A stretch of 64,000 nucleotides of DNA, taken from NCBI GenBank assembly GCA_964035015.1, contig OZ035997.1:83628769-83692768 (forward strand), written 5' to 3'. The notes under the pieces are model-generated. The model saw only the letters and a list, made by a program, of their open reading frames with translations, had not been told where the DNA came from and did no database searches. Positions 10,505-62,413 of this stretch are shown one piece after another; the stretch's first letter is position 1; every line of letters starts with the position of its first letter. Origin of the DNA: Corallium rubrum. Its lineage: Eukaryota > Cnidaria > Anthozoa > Scleralcyonacea > Coralliidae. Made by a program: the position numbers and the translations under genes.

Positions 10505-11478
10505 ATTTTAAGGAAGATTACCCATATGTTCACTCATCAACGGTGCTGGAAACCAGGGCATACAGCTCGAGTATGCAAATCAACATCCCCAGTTCCATCA
10601 CCTTCTTTAAACGACCAAGCGGCTGGGAACAACCAGTAACGATTAACACGTTCTCAGCCGCGGATAAACGATGTATTACGATATCAGGAACAGTTAAACA
10701 AGATAATAAAGAGCGTCAGTGTGAATTTATATGTGAGTCGGGGGCGGAAGTGTCAATATTACCGTTTTCATTCGCAGTTAAAGAAGGGTTAAAGGTAGAG
10801 AAAGCTTCAAGACAACTAGAAATGGCAGATGGAACAAGAGCTAGCTGTAAAGGAGTCGCAAAAATGGAGATAAGTGTTGCAAAAAATTCATGCAAGATAG
10901 ACTGTTATGTAGTGGAGGCTGTTCAAACAGCAATTATGGGTTTAGATGTTTTAGGAGCATTGGGCATTGTTCTAGACCCAAAAACTAAATCAGCCTATAT
11001 AGATGGAGTGAACCTACATGAATCTGAAGTACCAACTAATCAGCCATCAACACAGAAATGCTACCTGATATACGATTAGCTCAGACCTGTTTGGTAAAAC
11101 CAGGAAAAGAGACTTTCATATGGGGAAAACTAGAGGAAGGAAATACAAATTTCGACAGCACAATAAATGTAGATGGAACAGAACGGTTCAAGGCGAGAAC
11201 TGGCCTTATGACAGCTCCAGTTCGTATAACACCAGAAGCGATTGAAGATGGAAAAATCCCAATCTGTGTTTGGAATATATCTGACAAACCAATTCGTGTA
11301 TACAGAGAACAGTCAGCAACAACGGTAGAAGAACTGCCAGTCAAGATAGTAAATAAGATGACAGAAGTAAGTCCAGAAACAGCTACCACGGTGGAGTATG
11401 ACCCGGTTTCGGAAGTACAGATGGGAAAAGAGTTAACGGAGAGCGAGTCGACAAGATTGAAGAATCTAATAAGAAAGG
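10505..11478 (+). pseudogene. Ty3/Gypsy gag zinc knuckle and aspartic protease region, broken
   Basis: A zinc knuckle lies at about 10,537-10,575 (CWKPGHTARVC). The first Cys of the CCHC set is replaced by His. A retropepsin-like domain follows at about 10,700-10,990. Its active-site motif reads ESGA instead of the usual D(S/T)GA, so the catalytic Asp is lost. A matching MGLDVLGALG block lies near 10,938. A frameshift where two frames overlap at 11,058-11,079 leads into a linker ending near 11,478, where a repeat fragment interrupts it. Proteases of this kind process the retroelement polyprotein. This copy is inactive on sequence grounds. Confidence 0.8.
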
Positions 11479-11736
11479 ATAATCGTGGGGAGTATCATGA
11501 TGAATAATGCTAGCCAGTTGCATTTATGATAAAGGTTCACATGAGTGATTCGACAGAGCGTTAAATATTTCTTATTTAGTATTCATGTATACGTATTATA
11601 CAAAAATGAAACACAAAACCGCATAAATTTGCTTGCCAAAACACCCCAAAATTCTGGGTGTCACGTGACCAGCCGATGCCAGGGCCATTTTCGCCGACTC
11701 CCAACGTGGAGGCAAAATGCCCTGGGGACGAGGCTG
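11478..11736 (+). mobile_element. Half copy of the 520-bp Mutator-like element
   Basis: The sequence is the reverse complement of about 30,501-30,760, with a few substitutions. It includes one inverted-repeat end (about 11,668-11,736, ending in GGGGACGAGGCTG). The other end is missing, so this copy is truncated. It lies between retroelement linker sequence and the start of the reverse transcriptase. Confidence 0.8.
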
Positions 11737-11915: not shown

Positions 11916-13095
11916 TATATATATATATATATGTTATTTACCGGCTGGGAGGTCCGTATAGAAAAATATTTGCCCGAGGTCTTAAAAAAGGCCCGAGGCC
12001 GCAGGCCGAGGGACATTTTTGAGACCGAGGGCAAATATTTTTCTATATGGACCGACCAAAACGGTAAATAACATATTTATTTTTTTGCTTATCGTACAAT
12101 TTATAATTTACATAATTAGTAAATTAACATAATTGAATAAAGTTGCGTAATCGAGATGACGTTCACGTGATATTAAAAAGTCCAAAGTTTATCGTTCGAC
12201 AATAAACAACTGCCGACATGCAGTCTGACAGGGAAGCTTGGAACCTTTTTTTGTGGTGAAAAACAGTCAAAACGTGAAGATCCAGTTACGAAGGGAATTT
12301 AGAATGCAGTCCAAGTGTTTTTAAAGTTTAGTTGATAAAGATTCTTCGTCGTTCTTCTTCGTCGCTTGCTCGTTTTTGGCTGCTCGCTTGGAAAGTCGCT
12401 TTCAATACTCGACTGACTCCGTGGAAATTGAAAGTGTGTTGTTCGAGTTTGAAGACGAAAATGCTTGTTCTAAGTCATTTGTAACTTTTTTTCAAAGACA
12501 TATGGCACGATGAGGTTGGCATGTGGAAAATATTTGACTAAAAGGTAAAGACTTGTAGCGGTTTTGTTAAGTATAGTTGAACAACAGAAGAAAGACAGTT
12601 TAGTGTCAAAAGGTGTCAGCTTTTCTGTCTTCTCGTGGTATGTTTTTTATATATAGTCTATATAGTTTCATTTAGTGATTCAAAATACCATGTTCACAAG
12701 TTCATGTATATGTTTTGCCTACCGTTTTAAACTGTTTTCATACGTCGTTGATTGTTGAGCAATAATACTTGAAAACTTTATAGATGTCGCTCGCAAATTT
12801 TTTTTTGTCACAGTTTTCCCAGCATTTCTTTTAAAATTCGCTGTTTTCACATGAAGTTGTCAAAACCATTTGGATAAACCATCTTACTTTGCTTTTACTG
12901 GCATTCTATTGTAGTCTAAAATAGTGAAAAGCGTCGAGTATACGAAATATTAAAAAACTTTTTTGTTTTTGTTTTGAAATCCGCAGCGGTTCCGTATCGG
13001 GGTCCGTATCGTGTGATACGGACCGCTCGCTAAGCCAATCAGAGCGCGCGAATCAGATGGATACCGGACCGCAAAAAAATAATTCAGTGTTATCG
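11914..13095. mobile_element. Insertion replacing the reverse transcriptase palm, with a foldback end
   Basis: The segment begins with a short TA run and a foldback structure (arms 11,933-11,983 and 12,022-12,072, both starting GTTATTTACCG or its mirror). It ends with palindromic GTATCGTGTGATACGGACCG sequence at about 12,993-13,030. No coding region was recognised. About 1 kb of expected reverse transcriptase sequence is absent, so this was insertion plus deletion, or an older rearrangement. Its own boundaries are uncertain. Confidence 0.55.
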
Positions 13096-30500: not shown

Positions 30501-31020
30501 CAACCTCGTCCCCAGGGCATTTTGCCTCCACGTTGGGAGGTCGGCGAAAATGGCCCTGGCATCGGCTGGTCACGTGACACCCAGAATTTTGGGGTGTTTT
30601 GGCAAGAAAATTTATGCGGTCTTTGTGTTTCGTTTTTGTATAATATGTATACATGAATAATAAATAAGAAATATTTAACGCTCTGCCGAATCACTCATGT
30701 GAACCTTTATCATAAATGCAACTGGCTAGCATTATTCATCATGATACTCCCCACGATTAGCCAGGATGCATTTAAATGTCGGGAAGAAACATATATCTAA
30801 TGTTGTTCTTGACTTTAACCAAAGCTATCTTTACAATTCTTTGGATGAACTTCGCAGAGTGGATTTATTACAATTCATATTTTGATGAATAAATTACACT
30901 GTATCTGAATTAATCAAGTTTTTAAACCGGCCAATCCGATTATAGAATCGACCAGCCGATGCCAGGGCCATTTTCGCCGACCTCCCAACGTGGAGGCAAA
31001 ATGCCCTGGGGACGAGGTTG
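30501..31020. mobile_element. 520-bp Mutator-like non-autonomous element in the satellite
   Basis: The two ends are 71-bp reverse complements with no mismatch seen (30,501-30,571 and 30,950-31,020), starting CAACCTCGTCCCCAGGGCAT. Nine satellite bases are duplicated around it, ACCAGTTTG at 30,492-30,500 and ACCAGTATG at 31,021-31,029, with one difference. The interior (about 380 bp) has no gene. A truncated relative lies at 11,478-11,736. The matching termini suggest a fairly recent insertion. Confidence 0.92.
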
Positions 31021-46990: not shown

Positions 46991-47520
46991 TTAATAAAGT
47001 AAGAAAATCGCTTTGTGTTTACATAAATATTCTGTTTTCCTACGATAAGTACATGTCAGTGGTCGCTACCATTAGCAGAAGGACCCATAAATGCCGCCAT
47101 TTTGAAAGTGAAAATGCGGACACATTTTTGACGCAGTCCAGTTAAATATATAGGTCAGTGGTTATTTCATTGAAAGGAGTATTTATAGGGCTACAGGAGT
47201 CATTTGGACATTTCCATTGAGGACTTGAGGTAATTACCATTATTTTGACTTGTTTTAATGTGGTTTAAAATTTTATTGCGATGTAATAACTGTTTTAAAG
47301 TAGAATAAACAGCCAGAGTTGTGCACAGCACAAATACAACTGTACAAGTAAGTACTTGCTTTGTGCCTTCAAACCTTCAAACTTTATCAGATTTGGAAAA
47401 AAAATATGAAAGGTTTACTGAGTACTTGTCTAGTTCAAAAAGCAACCTGATATTTGTAAAGACGTGTGCTATGAAATTATACATGTACTGTAATTTCCTC
47501 TATGTAGCTCCCAAGGGCTT

Positions 47521-49351: not shown

Positions 49352-51304
49352 GCATTTAAAAGTAAGGGTAGTGTCACGATAGTAAGGGTAGCATAATTTA
49401 TTTAAGGGGCTTATTTATTTTCCTTATAAAAGGGAGCTAAACAGAGCCTGGGGCTGCTGGGCGATATTTGGTTAAACTTAGCCATGTATTTTGCTGATTT
49501 ATAATGGTGAATCAGGGGCTGTGGAGCATTTCAGAGTGGAAGGGGCAGTCAAGTTGCAAAGATGTGTGTGTGTGGGGGGGGGGGGGGGGAGGGGTGCAGT
49601 TGTGTACGTTGCACAAGTCTAAAGTTCTAAACATTGTGTGCTATTTGATTGTGAATCAGTTTTTTGCAGCGAAGTATGTATTTCAAACTTTATAGATACA
49701 CATTTTCTATTTGAATAATGTCAGCTGAATAATATTATAAAGAACCACTCTATGCCCAGTATAAACAAATTAATATCAGGAAAGTGACCCCCTCACTCTG
49801 CAGTCCCTTTGAATGTAGTAGATCTCAGCGATGGCAGAAGATGTTTTATATTTTGGGTGTTTGTGTGTGGGGTAATTCATCAAATAATAAGGCATGGCAG
49901 TGCATTGTCCCATATTGTCCCCCCTTTGCATCATCGGTTCATGAATTTTTTTTGGACGAATCCACATAGTCCATGTGATCCCCCCCTTTGTGTCCACTTT
50001 CTATCATCAGTCCATGAAATATCTCAGTGATATCAGTGATATCAGTGAGATATCTCACATCCTGGTAAGAAAGATAGGGCTAAAAATTGACTAAAATTTT
50101 TTGTCACAATGCATTGCCGTGCCTTATTATTTAATGAATTACCCCCCCCCCCCCAATATATAAAACATTTGCCACCACTGACATATACTACATTCAGGGG
50201 CCGCAGAGTGAGAGGGGGGTCACTTTCCTGATATTAATTTGTTTATACTGGGTATAGAGTGGTTCTTTATAATATTATTCAGCTGACATTATTCAAAAAG
50301 AAAATGTGGATCTAAAAAGTTTGAAATACATACTTCGCTGCAAAAAGCTGATTCATAACCAAATAGCACACAGTGTTTAGAACTTTAGACCATTGCACGC
50401 AACTGCATCCCCCCCCCCCCCAATCGTTTCCATTTGACTGCCCATTCCACTCTGAAATGCTCCACAACCCCTGATTCGTCATTATAAATAAGCAAAATAC
50501 AGGGCTAAATTTAACCAAATATCTCCCAGCAGCCCCAGCCTCTGTTTAGCTTCCTTTCATAGGGAAAATAAAGAAGCCCCCAGGGGGGAAGGGGGCTACA
50601 TAGAGGAAATTACAGTAGTCTGAGTACATGTATAATTTCATAGCACATGTCTTTACAAATATCAGGTTGCTTTTTGAACTAGACAAGTACTCCGTAAACC
50701 TTTCAATTTTTTCCAAATCTGATAAAGTTTGAAGGTTTGAAGGCACAAAGCAAGTACTTACTTGTACAGTTGTACTTGTGCTGTGCACAACTCTGGCTGT
50801 TTACTCTACTTTAAAACAGTTATTACATCGCAATAAAATTTGAAACCACATTAAAACAAGTCAAAATAATATACACTTAATGTCTGCTCCCGAGGGAAAC
50901 AGTTAGTTTTGTTTTCCCGAGAGTCTTGATATTTAACTGTTTCCCGAGGGATCAGACATTAAGTGTTTTGTTATATAGCTTGAATTTCGCCGAATAATTT
51001 CGACGCTTATCAAGGGAAAGTACGCAAAAGACAAACGCTATTAAGACTTACCAAAACATTTCACCTGGCTCCGTAATTTCACTTCAACCAAACAAATATA
51101 AGTCTCAGAACAACAGAACAGCAATACACTTCTCCAGTTAATCTTCACACATGCTTTGAAGACCTATAAATATTCTTTTTTTCGTACCAAACAAGCTTTT
51201 GTTTATAGGATGCCGTGAAGAGTTCAAAGTTCTAGCGGTCAACAATTGAAAACTTATTGACTGAGCGGGCAATAAGTTCTCAATTATTGCCTGCTCGGTA
51301 GACA

Positions 51305-52335
51305 TTATACACTTGTTGACTGGCGCCGAGGGAAACATCGAGTTTTACGGACCCGAAGGCTTCAATGTCACCCAAGGGCTTTAGCCCGAGGGTGACATTG
51401 AAGCCTGAGGGACCGTAAAACTCGATGTTTCTCGAGGCAAAAGTCAACAAGCGTTTTGTTATATACCAAAGACTTTTAAAATACAAAATACAAAACTGCC
51501 TTGAAACTTGCAAACGGCGAAAAGACTTACTAAAACACTTTGACTTTGTCTTCGTAATTTCAATTCAAGTCATTCAACTAAACAAATACACCACACTCAA
51601 CACTAAGAACAGCTTTAAATTTCTCCAAGTGTTTTCAGAACTTCTTTGAAGATATGTATAGCAATTCTTTCTTTCGGAAAATGGACTATTTCGTACCAAA
51701 GAAGCTCGAAACAAGCCCTTGTTTTCAAAATGCCCGAAGAGTCCAAAGTTCTTGATCTGATTGCAATTGTGTATTCACGTGAACAACGCATGATTAAAGC
51801 GACGTCAGAGGGAAACATTGCACTGTTTCCTTCTTCGTTGTTGACGTCAGAGGGAAACAGTGCAATGTTTCCCTCGGCAGAAAGAAACACTGAGTTTGTT
51901 AAACAACACGTGACCATGATTTGACCAATAGGATTTCATTATTGGCAAAGGAAAGTCTTTGGTATATAACAATATACACTTGTTGACTGGCGCCGAGGGA
52001 AACATCGAGTTTTACGGACCCGAAGGCTTCAATGTCACCCGAGGGCTTTAGCCCGAGGGTGACATTGAAGCCTGAGGGACCGTAAAACTCGATGTTTCTC
52101 GAGGCAAAAGTCAACAAGCATTTTGTTATATACCAAAGACTTTTAAAATACAAAATAGAAAACTGCCTTGAAACTTGCAAACGGCGAAAAGACTTACCAA
52201 AACACTTTCACTTTGTCTTCGTAATATCAATTCAAGTCATTCAACTAAACAAATACACCAGACTCAACACTAAGAACAGCTTTAAATTTCTCCAGGTGTT
52301 TTTCAGACCTTCTTTGAAGATATGTATAGTTATTT
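51305..52335. repeat. Two direct copies of a hairpin-rich element
   Basis: About 51,307-51,655 and 51,970-52,325 are near-identical. Both start TACACTTGTTGACTGGCGCC and contain a hairpin built on GGGAAACATCGAGTTTTACG and its mirror. The first copy continues to 51,971 with a GAGGGAAACATTGCACTG hairpin and ends in a mirror of GTTATATACCAAAGACTTT (51,451 versus 51,953). Sequence matching 51,672-51,971 recurs at 58,259-58,560. Confidence 0.75.
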
Positions 52336-53341
52336 TTTCCCGGTCCGGAATTCCTTAAAATCCTGCTTTCTTATATTGGCTAACGAGCGGTCCGGAATTT
52401 TAGAGTACGGACCTCGCAGGCTAAAACTGCCCGACAAATGTTTTAAAATTTGGTTTTGAAATTACTTTTTAATATAAAAGATATCGAAAAATGAATTGGG
52501 ACGAAAGCGAGCATAGCGAAAGTGAATTTTATTACCCGTCAGATGATTGGACTGAAGAACAGCTTGTGAATAATGAATGCCCAACAACTCACTGCCCAAC
52601 TAGCGACACTGCAGCAGTAGTAAACACAGAAGACGAAAGTAACGCCGACGATATAAACATAATTCAGAACTTTATTGAGAAACAACGACCTGAAGCTACG
52701 AAGAAGAAGACGGAATACGACCTAAATGTCCTCAAAAGGTACTTTTTATCAATTAAGGAAACAAGAGAAATTGAAATCATACCTGCTCATGAATTAAATG
52801 TTCTGCTTCGTAAATTTATTATTAACGCACGAAAAAAAAATGGCGAAATGTATGAGCCGTCGTCCCTTACTTCATTCCAGAGAAGTTTGCAGAGATATTT
52901 GAATAACAAGAATTCAAGGGTAAATATATTCAAAGACCAAGAATTCTCCAAGTCCAGAGAAGTTCTCTTGGCGAAAAAACGATAGCTTGTGCCGCAACAC
53001 GCTAAAGGAAACAGGCCGCAGGCAGCTAGAGAGTTGACAACAGCTGAAGAAGATCGTCTTTTTGAAACCGGGATGTTTGGTGACCACGAACCCGAAGTGC
53101 TACAGAGAACCGTTTGGTGGGTTCTATCACTTCACTTTGGATTTAGAGCTCGTGACGAATCAAGAAGGCTGAAGTGGGGAGATTTGGATCTTGGGAAGGA
53201 TCCAGAAACAGGAGACGAAGTCTTGATATGGAAAGCCGAACGTGGATCCAAAACAAGACATGGCAACGGCGAAGACAGACGGGCGTTTAATCCAACAGCT
53301 CAAGCGACCAACAACGAGCGTTGCCCAGTTAAATTGGGGTA

Positions 53342-53655
53342 GGGATAAAACGCGGATGCGGATAGCGGACGGCGGATGCGGATGGCGGACGGCGGATGCG
53401 GATGGCGGATGAGAAAAGGCGGATAGAGGATAAAACGCGGATGAGAAAAAGCGGATAGAGGATAAAACGCGGATGAGAAAAGGCGGATAGAGGATAAAAC
53501 GCGGATGAGAAAAGGCGGATAGAGGATAAAACGCGGATAAGAAAAGGCGGATAGAGGATAAAACGCGGATGAGAAAAGGCGGATAGAGGATAAAACGCGG
53601 ATGAGAAAAGGCGGATAGAGGATAAAACGCGGATGGGGGATAAAACGCGGATGGG
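53342..53655 (+). repeat. 32-bp minisatellite in the left inverted end
   Basis: About seven units built on GGATAAAACGCGGATGAGAA, preceded by shorter GCGGATGCGGATG-type variants. Confidence 0.92.
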
Positions 53656-53711
53656 CAAAATAACGTGGGAACATAAAATCAAATCATATTAGATATAAAA
53701 CCCTAACTACA

Positions 53712-53785
53712 CTGCTAGCGGGATTTGAACTCGCACCTTCGGGATTCCGGTCCGCCGCTCTAGGAGGCGGGTTATATCCAACATA
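53712..53785 (-). other. tRNA-like sequence
   Basis: On the minus strand, GGTGCGAGTTCAAATCCCGC resembles a tRNA T-arm with a B box, and CCGCCTCCTAGAGCGG resembles an anticodon arm. No matching acceptor stem or D-arm was found. It is probably a tRNA-derived fragment in the transposon arm, not a functional tRNA. Confidence 0.35.
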
Positions 53786-53829
53786 AGTGCACGAGATATT
53801 CTCGGGACAACTTAACGCTTATGTCCGTG

Positions 53830-54470
53830 AGGACTTTATCTAGCTCTCGTCCGTTACTCTATTCCCATGAACTCGCTTACGCATCGCAAGTCTGGGCTCC
53901 ACAGTCTGTCGACCTTATCAAGCGCACGGAACGCGTCCAAAGACGCGCATCAAAACATATAATGGATCTACCCTTCTTCTGTGACATCAGTTATAACCAT
54001 CGTCTCTTAACGTTAAATCTACTTCCTTTATGTTACTGGCCACGAATACCTTGACATGTTGTTCCTTTTCGAATCAAATCGTAACATTATTAACTTAAGC
54101 AGTGACATAGCTACTATACCAGAACCTCAAAATTCAAATAGACCCACACGATCAGCAAACCCAAACTGTTTACAATTTCAGACAACAAAATGTAAAACAT
54201 CTTAACTATGAAATGTATAACTTTAAAAGACTTTAAAAAAGGACTATATAATTACTATATTTTAGCACTAGAACACTGTTTTAATGCAGATGATCAACGG
54301 ACATGGAAAATGCAACAAAGCGCGTGATCTAACTAAGTTATATTTGTTGTAATCTTTAGGGACCGCAGTAATTGGCGTAAGCTGTTGCGGTTGCCCTGCC
54401 AGTTGTTTGTGTCGATGTCTGTACGTATTGTTTGAGTATGGCAAAGCAAATAAAATAAAATAAATATATA
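53830..54470 (+). pseudogene. Non-LTR retrotransposon 3' fragment
   Basis: A frame from about 53,830 to 54,054 reads ELAYASQVWAPQSVDLIKR, then ERVQRRASKHIMDLP and LLTLNLLPLCYW. This is the region just downstream of the reverse transcriptase in jockey/CR1-like elements. Broken coding sequence and a 3' region follow, ending in an A-rich AATAAAATAAA tail at about 54,450-54,470. It is 5'-truncated and interrupts the left arm of the surrounding element. Confidence 0.82.
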
Positions 54471-54862
54471 ACCCTGTAGATATAAAACGAAAGAGAAAGA
54501 GAATTTAAAATGTCGGAAGAATTCAAAGTTTAATACGCGTCACATGCCTAAAACATAACCCCAACTCTAAACATAACACATGTCCGTAGGTTGAAGAATC
54601 CTCCTGATTTACATAAACTTTAGCTTTGATTTTCTCGGCATAGACAACGTTATTTTTCAAACTTACTACGCCAATCAACTTATCAAATGGGTCGTTTTTG
54701 AGGCTATTTAACTACATTCGCAGTACGTGTTTTATCAGATCTAAAACACTCGGCTATCGCCTCGTGTTTTTAATATGATACAACACTGCTGCTCATATGT
54801 TTTAAATGATTACTTAAACAATCATATAAAATAAATGTACACATATACACACATACATGTAA

Positions 54863-54966
54863 TGTTTACAACATGAACGGCCGTGTTGTATCGAATATAC
54901 AATCACGAGCCGAAGGCGAGTGATTATATATTCGATACAACACGGACGCGAATGTTGTAAACAGCT
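54863..54966. repeat. Hairpin, about 46-bp arms
   Basis: 54,863-54,908 and 54,921-54,966 are reverse complements with few differences, around CGAATATACAATCAC. A smaller palindrome, CAACCACTAGTGGTTG, lies near 55,075. I see no gene from 54,546 to 55,254. Confidence 0.7.
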
Positions 54967-55254
54967 TAAAACACGCAGAGTCTTTGATGTTAATATGAGT
55001 AATATTTGTTCAGATTAATTCAGAAAAAGCTCAATTTCAATGTTTTAGAGCGGAGATAGTGACCTGATATACAACCACTAGTGGTTGTATATGTGATACA
55101 ACCACGTGTGGTTTGTATCAGATATACAACCTCCTTCACGGTCATGATTTCTTTTGTGTTTTCTTCATGAATTATTAATGAGTGTTTTAATATGTATTTA
55201 CATCAAGGAAACGACTTCTCTTTTCTCAAACTGCTACCTCTAAAAGTGTTCTAA

Positions 55255-55670
55255 ACTACTGGCATGAATATCTCGACATATTTTTCTACAAGATAACTCA
55301 TGGTATCAACATTCTGAAAAAAAATATCCAAGCAACTCTTCAAAATCATGCACAGACAAACAAGATCATCTAACACCTCTACCTATCAAAAATCCTATAC
55401 AATTCGGACAACAAGAATCTGGAACACACTACCCAAATCCCATTACAAGGAAAACTATCACACCAACTATCTTGGTATTGCGAAATACTTATAACATAGA
55501 CGATCCACGGATATGGAAGAGCGTTTGTCTTACAAACTCACTATCATGTTGTTTTTAAAATATTGCATGTCATATGTGTAGGATGTATTTTGATGTCCGT
55601 CTTTACTACCGTCTTGAAGTTATTTACTGTAACTTCAAGATTTTTACAATCAATCAATTTATATATATAT
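55255..55670 (+). pseudogene. Second non-LTR 3' fragment
   Basis: A broken frame includes TYQKSYTIRTTRIWNTLP (about 55,378-55,432), the conserved tail of non-LTR reverse transcriptase proteins, and a 3' region ending in a TA-rich tract at 55,660-55,680. It contains stops and frame changes. Sequence from 55,680 to 56,311 shows no gene. Confidence 0.6.
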
Positions 55671-56463
55671 ATATAAATTGATTCAGGGTCAACAGCCAAT
55701 AAAAATGTATATATATATATAAATTTATAAATAAATATATCTATATATAGAAGAGACTTATGCCTTTATTAAATATACAGTTCATGATTCCGATGCAATA
55801 ACAAAGGGAAAAGGTTTAAATTTACCACTTATATATAAACTTATTAACTTTCCGTTTGCATGCGCGTTCTTAACAACAAGAGGAAATGCAGAACTTTATT
55901 GATCAGTCTGATCATTCGAGAAATTTCTGGTTCTCACCGAAGGAAGTAACGGCCTAAACAGAACGCTGGCTACGAATGAAGCGTTGCCGGACGGACTCCC
56001 AATGCCATTATATAGCGACTTCACATTGAAACGTCGGCAAAACCACCAGCAAAAATAACACCGGATTAAAGCTAATTAGCCAAAAGCGGTCGATGACTGA
56101 TAAAGTAAAGAACTACGAACAGTGCCATATTAAATGTGCGTGTTGTAAAAACCCTCTGATTCATGCCACAATGAGAACAGTACTGTGCTTTCTAATCTAC
56201 AATCTCGTAAATTCGTAATATTATTTGGGTCGTTAGCGATGTTTAGTCAGTAGATATAGACAAACTCTAAATTTTGAAAAAACAGCTTGCCTTCGATAAA
56301 CCGCACCATGTAACGCGTATTAAACTTTGAATTCTTCCGACATTTTAAATTCTCTTTCTCTTTCGTTTTATATCTACAGGGTTTTATATGAAACACTGCA
56401 CGTCCTCACGGATATAAGCGTTAAGTTGTCTGTTGTCCCGAGAATATTTCGTGCACTTATGTT

Positions 56464-56545
56464 GGATAGAACTCCGCTCGCCTCCTAGAGCGGCGGACCG
56501 GGATTTGAACTCGTACCTTCGGGATTCCGCTAGCAGTGTAAGACA
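56464..56545 (+). other. tRNA-like sequence, internally inverted copy
   Basis: This is the mirror-arm counterpart of 53,712-53,785. The anticodon-arm-like half is in the expected orientation, but the T-arm-like segment between CCGG and CCGC reads in the opposite orientation (GGATTTGAACTCGTACC on the plus strand). Confidence 0.4.
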
Positions 56546-56610
56546 TCATGAAAAATGTTCTTAGGGTTTTATATCTAGTATGATTTTATTTTATGTTCCC
56601 CACGTTATTT

Positions 56611-57022
56611 TGCCCATCCGCGTTTTATCCTCTATCCGCCTTTTCTCATCCGCGTTTTATCCTCTATCCGCCTTTTCTCATCCGCGTTTTATCCTCTATC
56701 CGCCTTTTCTCATCCGCGTTTTATCCTCTATCCGCCTTTTCTCATCCGCGTTTTATCCTCTATCCGCCTTTTCTCATCCGCGTTTTATCCTCTATCCGCC
56801 TTTTCTCATCCGCGTTTTATCCTCTATCCGCCTTTTCTCATCCGCGTTTTATCCTCTATCCGCCTTTTCTCATCCGCGTTTTATCCTCTATCCGCCTTTT
56901 CTCATCCGCGTTTTATCCTCTATCCGCCTTTTCTCATCCGCGTTTTATCCTCTATCCGCCTTTTCTCATCCGCCATCCGCCATCCGCATCCGTCGTCCGC
57001 CATCCGCATCCGCGTTTTATCC
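56611..57022 (-). repeat. 32-bp minisatellite in the right inverted end
   Basis: About twelve units, the reverse complement of the array at 53,342-53,655, ending in CCGCATCCG-type variants and CCCTACCC. Confidence 0.92.
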
Positions 57023-57654
57023 CTACCCGTTAAATTGTTTAAATCCTTTGCCAGCCATCGGTCCGAAGGAATGAAAAAGCCAGATGCACCGTTTTACCTG
57101 GCCATTAACCACCGACGAAAACCAGGCTCCAAAATTTGGTACACAAATGGTCCGTTGGGTAAAAACGAAATCGGAAAGCTGCTCGTAAAAGCTGCCAAGT
57201 CTGTTGGTTTGCCAGGTAAAATCACCAATCACTCTGTTCGGAAAACGTGCATTTCGCGGTTAATGGATGCTGACATTCCGGAAAATTACGTGGCCCAACT
57301 AAGCGACATAAGAATCTTAAAAGTCTGGATTCCTACAAGTCAGCTTCAACAAGCCACCAGCGAAAGATGTCCATGGTCTTGAGTCGGTCAAACTCTTCAA
57401 GCATCACTGCCTTGTCTGGAAGTTTACCAGAACACCAAGCCGCAAGCTCAGCATCGCAGTCGTTGCAACAACAAGAATTTTCTTTTACGCGAAGGTCGGT
57501 TATTGAAGGAGTGTTTTCCGGAGCAACGATTTCAAATATCGAAGGCTGCACCTTTAATTTTTACCTAAATCCGATGTCGAACGAAGAGCGTGGCGAAGTT
57601 TCAACACACAAGAAACGCCATGTGATCGTCAGCGCCGAGTCCGAATCAGACTGA

Positions 57655-58144
57655 ATTAATTTCTTACAGTAACAAAGCATTGATGCGGTTGTAAAATTGT
57701 TGTATTTAAAAAAAAAGTTACGCTAAACACGAACGAATTAAGTCAACTAACCTTTCTCGTTTAATCGTTTTGCCAGACATCGAAAGCAATGTTCATAGAA
57801 CAGTTTCAAAGCAAGCAAAAAACAATGTGTAACTAGGCGCGATGATCCAGACTCCGACTGAGTTGCATCTCATTTACCCTCCTTTGTAAGATCCAAGTAT
57901 TTTGATGTAAACTTTTCGTTAACGTAATGCCAAAAATTAGGTTACACACAAACAACCGATGTTAAAGAACTTTGTTCGCTTTGCCTGTTTTGAAATAAAT
58001 ATTTTTTTACCCCCAGCTGACTTCCTTATTTGGTCGCAGCTGAGTGGCTTTTTGTTCTGACGTCAATGTTAAGTTTGTTCTTTTTTTTGGTTGGGAGGGA
58101 GGGGTGGAGGCATGAACGTACACCATCAGGGAAAAAATAAATAC
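57655..58144. other. No gene recognised
   Basis: Sequence downstream of the recombinase pseudogene, with a poly-A tract and a poly-T tract. Nothing else is recognisable. Confidence 0.5.
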
Positions 58145-58246
58145 GTTATTTACCGTTTTTGTCGGTCCGTACTAGAAAAATATTTTCCCTCGGTCTGCAA
58201 AAACGTATATATTTTTCTAGTACGGACTTCCAAGCCGGTAAATAAC
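58145..58246. repeat. Foldback repeat of the GTTATTTACCG family
   Basis: The arms read GTTATTTACCG inward from both sides, each with a CGTACTAGAAAAATAT-type block. The same design occurs at 11,933-12,072. Confidence 0.8.
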
Positions 58247-58258
58247 ATATATATATTT

Positions 58259-58560
58259 TTCTTTCGGAAAATGGACTATTTCGTACCAAACAAGCTCGAA
58301 ACAAGCTCTTGTTTTGAAAATGCCCGAAGAGTCCAAAGTTCTTGATCTGATGCAATAATCGTGTATTCACATGAACAACGCATGATTAAAGCGACGTCAG
58401 AGGGAAACATTGCACTGTTTCCCTCTTCATTGTTGACGTCAGAGGGAAACAGTGCAATGTTTCCCTCGGCAGAAAGAAACATTGAGTTTGTTGAACCACA
58501 CGTGACCATGATTTGACCAATAGGATTTCATTATTGGCCAACGAAAGTGTTTGGTATATA
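58259..58560 (+). repeat. Copy of the 51,672-51,971 segment
   Basis: It starts CTTTCGGAAAATGGACTATT and includes the GACGTCAGAGGGAAAC hairpin and the CAATAGGATTTCATTATTGG end, in the same orientation as the earlier copy. Confidence 0.85.
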
Positions 58561-58562
58561 AC

Positions 58563-58738
58563 AATGAAATTTAGCTAAGGTCATGTGACCACAAACCAAC
58601 CAATGACAGTCATCGTTGTATCCAGTGAAACTCTAGCTATATAACAATGGTAATTGTTATATAGCTAGAGTTTCACTGGATACAACGATGACTGTCATTG
58701 GTTGATTTGTTGTCACATGACCTTAGCTAAATTTCAAT
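58563..58738. repeat. Near-perfect palindrome, 86-bp arms
   Basis: 58,563-58,648 and 58,653-58,738 are reverse complements with only a few differences, around the loop GGTA. The arm centre reads GTTATATAGCTAGAGTTTCA. Confidence 0.9.
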
Positions 58739-59358
58739 GTCTACCGAGCGGGCAATAATTGAGAACTTATTGCCTGCTCGGTCAATAAGTTTTCAATTGT
58801 TGCCCGCTAGAACTTTGAACTCTTCACGGCATCCTATATAAACAAAAGCTTGTTTGGTACGAAGAAAAGAATATTTGTAGGTCTTTAAAGCATGTGTGAA
58901 GATTAACTGGAGAAATGTATTGCTGTTCTTTTGTTCTGAGACTCATATTTGTTTGGTTGAAGTGAAATTACGGAGCCAGGCGAAATGTTTTGGTAAGTCT
59001 TAGCGTTTGTCTTTTGTGTACTTTCCCTTGATAAACGTCGAAATTATTCAGCGAAACTCAAGCTATATAACAAAACACTTAATGCCTGATCCCTCGGGAA
59101 ACAGTTAGTTTTGTTTTCCCTCGAGTCTCGATGTTTCCCTCGACTTCGTCTCGGGAAATATCAAGACTTTCGGGAAAACAAAACTGTTTCCCTCGGGAGC
59201 AGACATTAAGTGTATATTATCTCAAGTCCTTAACCGAAAAGTCCAAATATTTCCGATTTTACGTACCGAAGCTTTCCGACGAATCGTCGGAATGACGTCA
59301 CTACATCAACTGAGTGCTGAATAACCTCACCCGTTTTGGTATCCGTTTTGTAATTAAT

Positions 59359-61150: not shown

Positions 61151-62413
61151 TTAATTAAAATATTCCACAAAAATGTTTCTGATTTTCTCATTGTTATTGC
61201 CTGTATTTGATCTGATGGCAACACTTGCTGGCTGGAATTCTAAATCATAATTTTGTGCAGCTTGAATTCTTTGCTCATTCACTTGTTCTCTCTTGCTTTC
61301 ACAAATATTGTGAAGAATGAAGCAAGAATGAATGACCTCTGGGACATCTGACAAATGTGTATCCAAGGGTCTCCTTAAAATGCCAAATCTTCCCTTAAGA
61401 CGACCAAAAGCTCCCTCTATTGTCATCCTGGCCGATGATAGTCGATATCCAAAAAACTGCTCCGGGTTTGAACCCCCATTAGGAAATTCTTTCATATTAT
61501 ATGGCAGCAGGGGGTAGGCTGGATCACCAAGAAGGCATACTGGGACTGGGTCATGGCCAGCAACAATGACCTTGGGGCATGGTGGTATTGCTTTGTCTTG
61601 TAAATTCTGATTTATATGTGAGTTGGCAAAAATGCAAGCATCGTGGACTGAACCAGGCCACTTAATTACAACATCAATGAAGCAATAATTAAAGTCACAA
61701 ACAGCCTGGACATTTAAAGAGTATCGTCCTTTTCTACTAATGTAGTCGGTGTAGTTCTCTGCAGGTTGATTTATGTAAATATGTGTACAATCCACAGCAC
61801 CAATGCATTGTGGAAACCCATGAGACCTATAAAGGTTTGCAATTAAATCTTCAACCTCATCTTGAGTTGTGGGAAGACATTTAAACCTTGGTCCAAGGTG
61901 GGATGAAATAGCTGATGTTACTCGTTTAATTATAGAGGATACTGTGCTTCTTCCTAAGCCAAAAGCATTTGCAACTTTTCTCAATCTTCCCTCATCTGAC
62001 AGGTAGTACAATGTCACTGCTATCTGTGTCTGGACACTCACTGGTTTTCGCTTATTTGTTTCGTGTTTAACAACGTATGGACTAAGTTCAGAGCGCAAAA
62101 AATTGAATGTTTCTCTTGTCACACGAAAGTTCTCGCGCCATTCATCTTCGACAGAAACACCAGAAATAATATTGTCCCACCAATGAGTACTCCTACCAGG
62201 TTGTACCCAATACCTTTTCTCTACCCGGCCTGATTTTCTTCTTGGATTTTGCCTTCTTGATCTGAGTATAATTTCCCTTGCTTGTCTTGTCCGATTTCTT
62301 GTCACTAGCAGTCGTATCAATGATATATTTGTCAAAATAGTGACGCATATATTCAACAGAATTTGTCCAAACAAGATGAATATATTTCGTATGAATATAT
62401 TTCGTACTGCCAT
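61151..62413 (-). CDS. PIF/Harbinger transposase (DDE_Tnp_4 nuclease), intact
   Basis: The uninterrupted 420-residue frame is near the usual length for this family. A helix-turn-helix-like region at about residues 127-165 ([20 protein letters not shown]) precedes the nuclease core. The catalytic residues are visible: Asp208 in GAVDCTHI, Asp297 in LLGDPAYPL and Glu333 in [17 protein letters not shown]-terminal CFILHNICE motif is also typical. The enzyme cuts the element at its ends and inserts it at a short target in the nucleus. The N-terminal 40 residues are hydrophobic and may not be translated; a later Met or a spliced start is possible. It is related to vertebrate HARBI1, but this is a transposon gene. 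Its partner gene is broken, so the copy could act only with a partner supplied elsewhere. Confidence 0.93.

Follow-up and report, generated by a model that had tools for sequence, protein, structure and literature searches.

A nest of hairpin-ended elements in Corallium rubrum points to a probable Crypton-type transposon system with an attC- and DIRS-like attachment site

The DNA considered here is a stretch of 64,000 nucleotides from Corallium rubrum (contig OZ035997.1, positions 83,628,769 to 83,692,768), hereafter the window, in which a tyrosine recombinase (YR) gene lies between long inverted segments. The inverted ends and the recombinase gene are both real, yet they are separate elements and not one: a YR element lies within a shell formed by a repeat, M2, which itself lies within another repeat, M1. 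The locus appears to be a nest of mobile elements with one common kind of end. Comparison of its sequences with copies from the assembly in which the window lies (G000; 474 Mb, 312 contigs) makes it probable that the YR elements, M1 and M2 constitute a Crypton-type transposon system with an attachment site of the attC/DIRS kind, possibly used by exchange of one strand. The borders of the element ends were set partly by eye.

The inverted segments (50866-51306 and 58736-59220) are 84.8% identical over 492 aligned columns, in agreement with the ends of about 0.43-0.48 kb given in the preliminary description of this locus; motifs of the GAGGGAAACA type, found by reading, also bear out its statement that palindromes of the ends recur in the interior. 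However, the segments do not terminate a single element: each belongs to a copy of M1, a repeat of about 568 bp, and the two copies are inverted relative to each other. In the copy on the plus strand, M1(+), the insertion of M2 can be read directly: solo M1 copies have the empty sequence GACAT^TGAAAT, whereas the window has GACAT/TATACAC...AACAA/TGAAAT around a tandem pair of M2 (slashes mark junctions). The first part of the second M2, the shell of the YR element (51973-52329), has 40 scored primary matches at 97-100% identity, a count that includes this stretch and the other M2 of the window. For the whole insertion there is, as had been noted earlier, an empty site in the other arm of a palindrome; near 47.23 kb on the minus strand, AAAATAAT-GGTA-ATTACCTCAAG corresponds in an alignment made by eye to the filled AAAATAAT/ATACACTT...AAGTGTAT/ATTATCTCAAG. 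The whole nest sits in this larger palindrome, whose arms (47239-47512 and 50591-50870) are 93% identical. The earlier idea of a hairpin-rich, non-autonomous carrier of the gene was nearly right as regards nesting, the YR element being in the M2 shell and this in M1. That of a recombinase element with unusual hairpin-bearing ends was right about the kind of ends; these are the element's own and are found at 52330 and about 58251, not at 50871 and 59220. When the co-occurrence of the inverted ends and the gene was checked, the fetched copies of the ends mostly stood solo without the gene and the gene lay, at the other loci examined, within its own, different ends, contrary to the view that a recombinase element had acquired inverted ends.

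The gene pieces between the inverted segments match the Pfam domains DUF3504 (E 1.3e-11) and QRICH1 (E 1.6e-12), as expected from the initial description of the gene as DUF3504-like, and the protein has the R-H-R-Y residues together with DUF3504, as in Crypton tyrosine recombinases. Its relatives are of the QRICH1/ZMYM type, judging from matches and domains and not from a tree, and include, among the 120 listed of 400 matches (most of them nameless), anthozoan proteins of Paramuricea, Actinostola, Acropora and Oculina. The structure model has a mean pLDDT of 70.1, with low confidence at residues 1-9, 15-39, 244-250, 367-370 and 392 onward, of which 367-370 adjoin the presumed catalytic tyrosine. 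A scan of viral_contigs with the YR profile gave a single distant locus.

The window's gene is broken by an in-frame TAG (52983), a frameshift near 57.30 kb and a 3.7-kb insertion. Intact copies, which the preliminary description had proposed to look for, do exist: the locus L049, reached from a YR gene on the margin of the fetched M1 copy L019, holds an intact gene of 482 aa followed by a palindrome homologous to the one behind the window's gene. The L049 element of about 2.2 kb, the sole complete element read, has one open reading frame (ORF) of at least 120 aa, that of the YR; neither a reverse transcriptase/RNase H or methyltransferase ORF nor a reverse transcriptase or DDE transposase of its own is present in it. 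Tandem spacings of 2137 and 2167 bp at two other loci suggest that these likewise hold the YR as single gene. L049 and other copies show the YR element's own ends, for which reason the M2 shell (51973-58564) was rejected as the autonomous element. At L049 (2498-4963) the intact YR element lies within a palindromic element with terminal inverted repeats (TIRs; CAGGGTGTATC..., apparent TA duplication), the empty site being found in the other arm. The genome search for the YR gave 138 scored matches among 663 candidates; 46 of the matches lie in a stop-free frame of 470 aa or more.

Both ends were examined in 21 YR elements from these 138 matches (L049 and the window included), in addition to two tandem junctions. 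The YR element ends in a hairpin of about 100-150 bp, detected automatically in 20 of the 21, and the foot of the hairpin is an inverted repeat of the element's other end and therefore complementary to the junction that a circle would form. Beside the hairpin foot, 16 of the 20 hairpin-bearing elements have an automatically detected run of 11-23 nt that exactly repeats, inverted, part of the left region; these 16 represent about ten families, several being copies of one family. Shuffled left regions reached 10 nt in 52 of 2000 cases. This test superseded two earlier ones with poor hairpin borders. The first of them gave a mean arm of 11.1 nt for own pairs, compared with 8.1 when families were mismatched and 7.1 when the feet were shuffled; the second gave 28.6 for true pairs against 23.5 for mismatched and 22.6 for shuffled ones, nearly equal because the hairpin stem dominated the statistic. 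In 12 families whose borders were set by eye, the inner foot corresponds to both ends, in the order that these have at the joined junction. The folded junction strand of these families, with arms chosen by eye as complements, has 10-23 arm pairs and 9-14 lower-stem pairs, and the spacer bases left unpaired in silico range from 2 to 6 of 6 (at least three in 9 of the 12). In one fold run the M1 junction was cut slightly too far into the flank, with no effect on the M2 and YR folds. The most distant element tested has a protein 37% identical to that of the window's gene and differs in its hairpin and in most of the arm sequence, so that the layout is kept while the sequence changes.

M1 and M2 have the layout of the YR elements, with a hairpin end and an inner foot complementary to the joined ends. 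The left end of the inverted pair, used as M1 query, had 40 scored primary matches among 3153 first-look candidates, those other than itself being 86-98% identical. All 20 M1 copies fetched with up to 9.6 kb of inward sequence (L009-L028) are units of 508-587 bp, mostly solo, that start with TATACACTTAATG and end with TATATAACAA, or near variants of these. One of the 20, L019, has an inverted partner 0.4 kb off; another, L015, directly follows an M2 and has a second M1 9 kb further. A de novo scan of the fetched loci for the layout mostly recovered M1, because the loci had been picked by M1. The M2 ends resemble, by eye, those of the YR subfamily sub4 (TTGTTATATACCAAAG against TTATTATATGGCAAG, and CCAGTCAACAA against CTCAGTCAATAA). 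M1 and M2 copies at L030, L046 and G000:C1:42630162 (the last an M2) have a common left flank, gtggaggtgaatag, as though a single repeated target had received both kinds.

The insertion sites were compared in 44 copies of M1 type for which both ends were available, including a few M2-like ones that fit the pattern. The M1 target is a dyad, AAYAW-N6-TTATT: the left arm has A at -5 in 24 copies, A at -4 in 32, T or C at -3 in 43, A at -2 in 38 and A or T at -1 in 40, and past six variable bases the right arm has T at +7 in 33, T at +8 in 35, A at +9 in 36, T at +10 in 31 and T at +11 in 26. No base is common to the two junctions in 25 of the 44 copies, one in 15, two in 3 and three in 1, so M1 inserts without target duplication; a 3-bp duplication (AAT/ATT) was rejected as the sides differ across many copies. 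The spacer is polar, with that of the element on the hairpin side (exact TATACAC in 33/44) and that of the target on the other (40 different 6-mers). In M2 (20 copies, two with identical flanks) the target has A at -2 in all 20, C or T at -3 in 19, and T at +8 in all 18 copies with a matched right end (two matches loose); three of these 18 run straight into another M2. All 40 primary M2 matches begin at query base 1. As for the 40 primary M1 matches, 35 begin in the first four bases and four at base 64 (split in the hairpin), while L039 begins at base 7 and is truncated at both ends.

These observations lead to the following model. The autonomous kind would be a Crypton-type DNA transposon encoding a YR with a QRICH1-like DNA-binding domain and a DUF3504 catalytic domain, and the gene-less kinds M1 and M2, having the same layout, would be moved in trans. 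At the end, an inverted copy of the other end at the hairpin's inner foot, a short spacer and the lower stem of the hairpin come in this order. In a circle or a tandem array the joined ends would pair with the foot, so that one strand folds into a duplex-like attachment site whose spacer is wholly or partly unpaired. The recombinase would join this folded site to a genomic target, in which 6-7 nearly arbitrary bases separate two inverted arms, by exchanging one strand at one spacer border in both sites. With exchange at one border, the hairpin side would retain the spacer of the element and the opposite side that of the target, with no duplication. The right junction would again be a target, which would account for the tandem arrays (M2-M2, M2-shell), and the nearly palindromic target would account for copies in opposite orientation, such as those that give the window its inverted ends. 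The model builds on the anatomy, insertion points, target dyad, spacer polarity and open YR genes seen in the sequences. To these it adds a presumed circular intermediate, a presumed mobilisation of M1 and M2 in trans, and the use of folded single-stranded DNA with single strand exchange, which is quite possible though somewhat less likely than not.

Table 1. Features of the window, with nucleotide positions and strand.
Feature	Position	Strand	Remarks
M1(+), first part	50870..51305	+	hairpin-ended repeat of about 568 bp; target arm AATAA immediately left
M2, 667-bp hairpin-ended repeat	51306..51972	+	within M1(+) at GACAT^TGAAAT; solo M1 copies are the empty site
Second M2 copy, first part (tandem; shell of YR element)	51973..52329	+	96% to M2
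YR (Crypton-type) element	52330..58251	+	right boundary +/- about 6 bp (TA repeat); ends as in three other subfamily copies elsewhere
YR element 5' arm, TTATTTTTTCCC	52330..52341	+	
YR gene, 5' half (QRICH1 and DUF3504 domains)	52491..53336	+	in-frame TAG at 52983
Nested element splitting the YR gene	53337..57028		TIR GGGTAGGGATAAAACGCGGATG; 32-bp subterminal tandem repeats, 7 and 11 copies
YR gene, 3' half	57038..57655	+	HxxR; H..Y part read past frameshift near 57.30 kb; residues compared with alignment A1
Inner inverted copy of 5' arm (GGGAAAAAATAA), "internal complementary region"	58129..58140	+	
YR element terminal hairpin, GTTATTTACCG...CCGGTAAATAAC	58145..58246		followed by spacer (C)ATATA
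M2 shell, remainder	58252..58564	+	ends GGTATATAACAA; 94.5% to M2 from 58258 on
M1(+), remainder	58565..58647	+	ends TATATAACAA
Target spacer TGGTAA, between both M1 copies	58648..58653	+	six bases
M1(-), complete, opposite orientation	58654..59221	-	95% to L010 copy
Empty site of whole insertion, AATAATGGTAATTACC	47228..47245 (approximate)	-	opposite palindrome arm
Second element with the YR element's ends (palindrome and GCAAAAAAATAA end)	11918..13082	-	borders by eye

Several observations weigh against this interpretation, which is known from sequence in one genome, no circle, single-stranded intermediate or transposition having been observed. Left regions of other families reach 10 nt in 72 of 360 mismatched pairs, AT-rich arms being common to related families, and the arm of C56a, among the 16, consists of a run of T. 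The automatic test missed 4 of 20 elements; with borders set by eye the arm is present in C188, C28 and the distant C8, and absent even so in C309. A further element, C1_22, has no hairpin despite its open gene. Just two of six spacer bases are unpaired in 3 of the 12 folded junctions, and the M1 target spacer agrees with TATACA at an average of 2.1 of 6 positions, a little over base composition. The right arm of the M2 target is weak past +8 (+9 is G in 9 of 18) and there resembles M2's own end only faintly. TA repeats blur the right borders of YR elements, whose hairpin-side flanks fit AAYAW less well than M1 flanks do. No copy of opposite polarity was seen among the 80 primary M1 and M2 matches, where such copies could be missed because the queries included the spacer. 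The association of M1 and M2 with the YR is suggested by common layout, target type and likeness to the sub4 ends; no coding copy of either was seen, a systematic search not having been made.

A first alternative is the ordinary double-stranded YR recombination of a circle, with the hairpin and inner foot as protein-binding or regulatory sequence. Duplex YR sites likewise consist, in the available text of PMC3212892, of two inverted arms with a 6-8 bp spacer, and no single-stranded intermediate has been seen here, so this explanation deserves serious, if tentative, consideration. Against it stand the match of the inner foot to both ends in joined-junction order, as found in the 12 families with borders set by eye, and a target spacer that barely resembles that of the element and lies on one side only. 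Another explanation would class M1 and M2 among the Helentron-associated repeats (HINEs), with a rolling-circle Rep/helicase as the enzyme that moves them and the YR element having merely landed inside. HINEs too insert without target duplication and have a palindrome close to one end as well as subterminal inverted repeats, as far as the available part of PMC4067079 describes them, and Rep-type genes are plentiful in the genome (150 scored Rep/helicase matches, all above cut-off); the failure to see coding M1 or M2 copies also fits. This is nonetheless unlikely, given that YR-coding elements of about ten families have the same layout, that the target has inverted arms on either side of 6-7 bases, the arrangement that a recombinase dimer would require, and that the M2 ends look like those of sub4. 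A single 8.35-kb element with true 0.45-kb TIRs carrying the recombinase gene, to which the inverted flanks and the empty site for the whole insertion had pointed, is highly improbable and was rejected, the fetched flank copies being mostly solo and the gene having its own ends at the other loci examined.

Other mobile DNA is found in the window. In the second element with the YR element's ends (11918-13082) no YR gene was seen; it is located in an incomplete-looking Gypsy-like pol region. The element that splits the YR gene (53337-57028) is flanked by 9-bp repeats, GTTAAATTG, at 53328-53336 and 57029-57037, and from the length of this duplication we take it to be MULE-like. About 25 kb of tandem repeats (15513-40070) read WPPFQCFGTPV / HQYGHHFNVL in several frames, and the many ORFs there look like repeat artefacts. 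A 420-aa ORF at 61151-62413 on the minus strand contains DDE_Tnp_4 (Pfam E 1.2e-30) and is Harbinger-like, whereas a THAP-domain ORF at 719-2175 on the plus strand (Pfam E 5.2e-9), followed by another ORF, is possibly a P-element-type transposase. A pair of inverted repeats (11477-11736 and 30501-30762; 96.6% identity) is separated by about 19 kb.

Animal Cryptons gave rise to the woc/ZMYM/QRICH1 gene lineage, and Eulor repeats form hairpins. The human Eulor5/6 repeats are described as Crypton-derived in the available portion of PMC5753468. No terminal repeats, direct or inverted, are reported for animal Cryptons in the accessible text of Kojima and Jurka (2011; PMC3212892), and this left the recognition of Crypton ends and targets open. 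No description of hairpin ends in Cryptons was found in the titles and abstract openings of the top-ranked literature, with Repbase and most subscription papers outside that scope. The hairpin layout could explain how animal Cryptons insert without target duplication. Should the layout recur in other animals, the ends of elements and their points of insertion could be called exactly, a plasmid assay would be possible, and Cryptons, DIRS elements and integrons would become directly comparable in mechanism. It may be proposed, with considerable reserve, that animal Cryptons are eukaryotic counterparts of integron cassettes, in which a single-stranded circle folds at its junction and joins double-stranded targets by one strand exchange, and that a folded "internal complementary region" of this kind also accounts for DIRS elements, giving one circle-junction mechanism for both.

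The comparison with known systems, made here with the available parts of the respective papers, shows features of several of them. The YR elements resemble CryptonA in having a single YR gene with DUF3504, no recognised C-terminal domain, gene-less derivatives and no usual TIR, and differ from its published form in their defined ends, terminal hairpin, inner inverted copy of the other end and dyad target (PMC3212892). The name Crypton is kept because the lack of terminal repeats was published as a negative observation and does not define the family. DIRS elements carry internal regions that are complementary to their ends, and are modelled as inserting without duplication; DIRS1-like retrotransposons share with the present elements the YR, the complementary regions near the 3' end matching two ends, the absence of target duplication and the circle model, whereas here L049 has no reverse transcriptase ORF, long inverted terminal repeats are lacking and the complementary region belongs to a terminal hairpin (PMC3266345). 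Integron attC sites fold so that the central spacer stays unpaired, and recombine through one strand; pairing of arms around a central spacer in a folded strand (predicted here), one-strand exchange (putative here) and arrays are common to both, and the spacer polarity is compatible with single-stranded recombination of the attC type, but the present system would be a eukaryotic transposon with its own recombinase and many targets, and with a spacer that in some families is only partly unpaired (PMC2727003). The bacterial YR elements termed SEs, with a 6-bp spacer, strand bias and inverted end motifs of 19 bp, are alike in YR, inverted end motifs, spacer length and (putatively here) use of one strand, and differ in being bacterial, in their four shared genes and in an attB in which no inverted-repeat structure was detected (PMC9345347). 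Helentrons and HINEs share subterminal inverted repeats, a palindrome near one end and the lack of target duplication, and differ in their Rep/helicase/endonuclease and TT target (PMC4067079). The layout described here combines Crypton, DIRS, attC and SE features.

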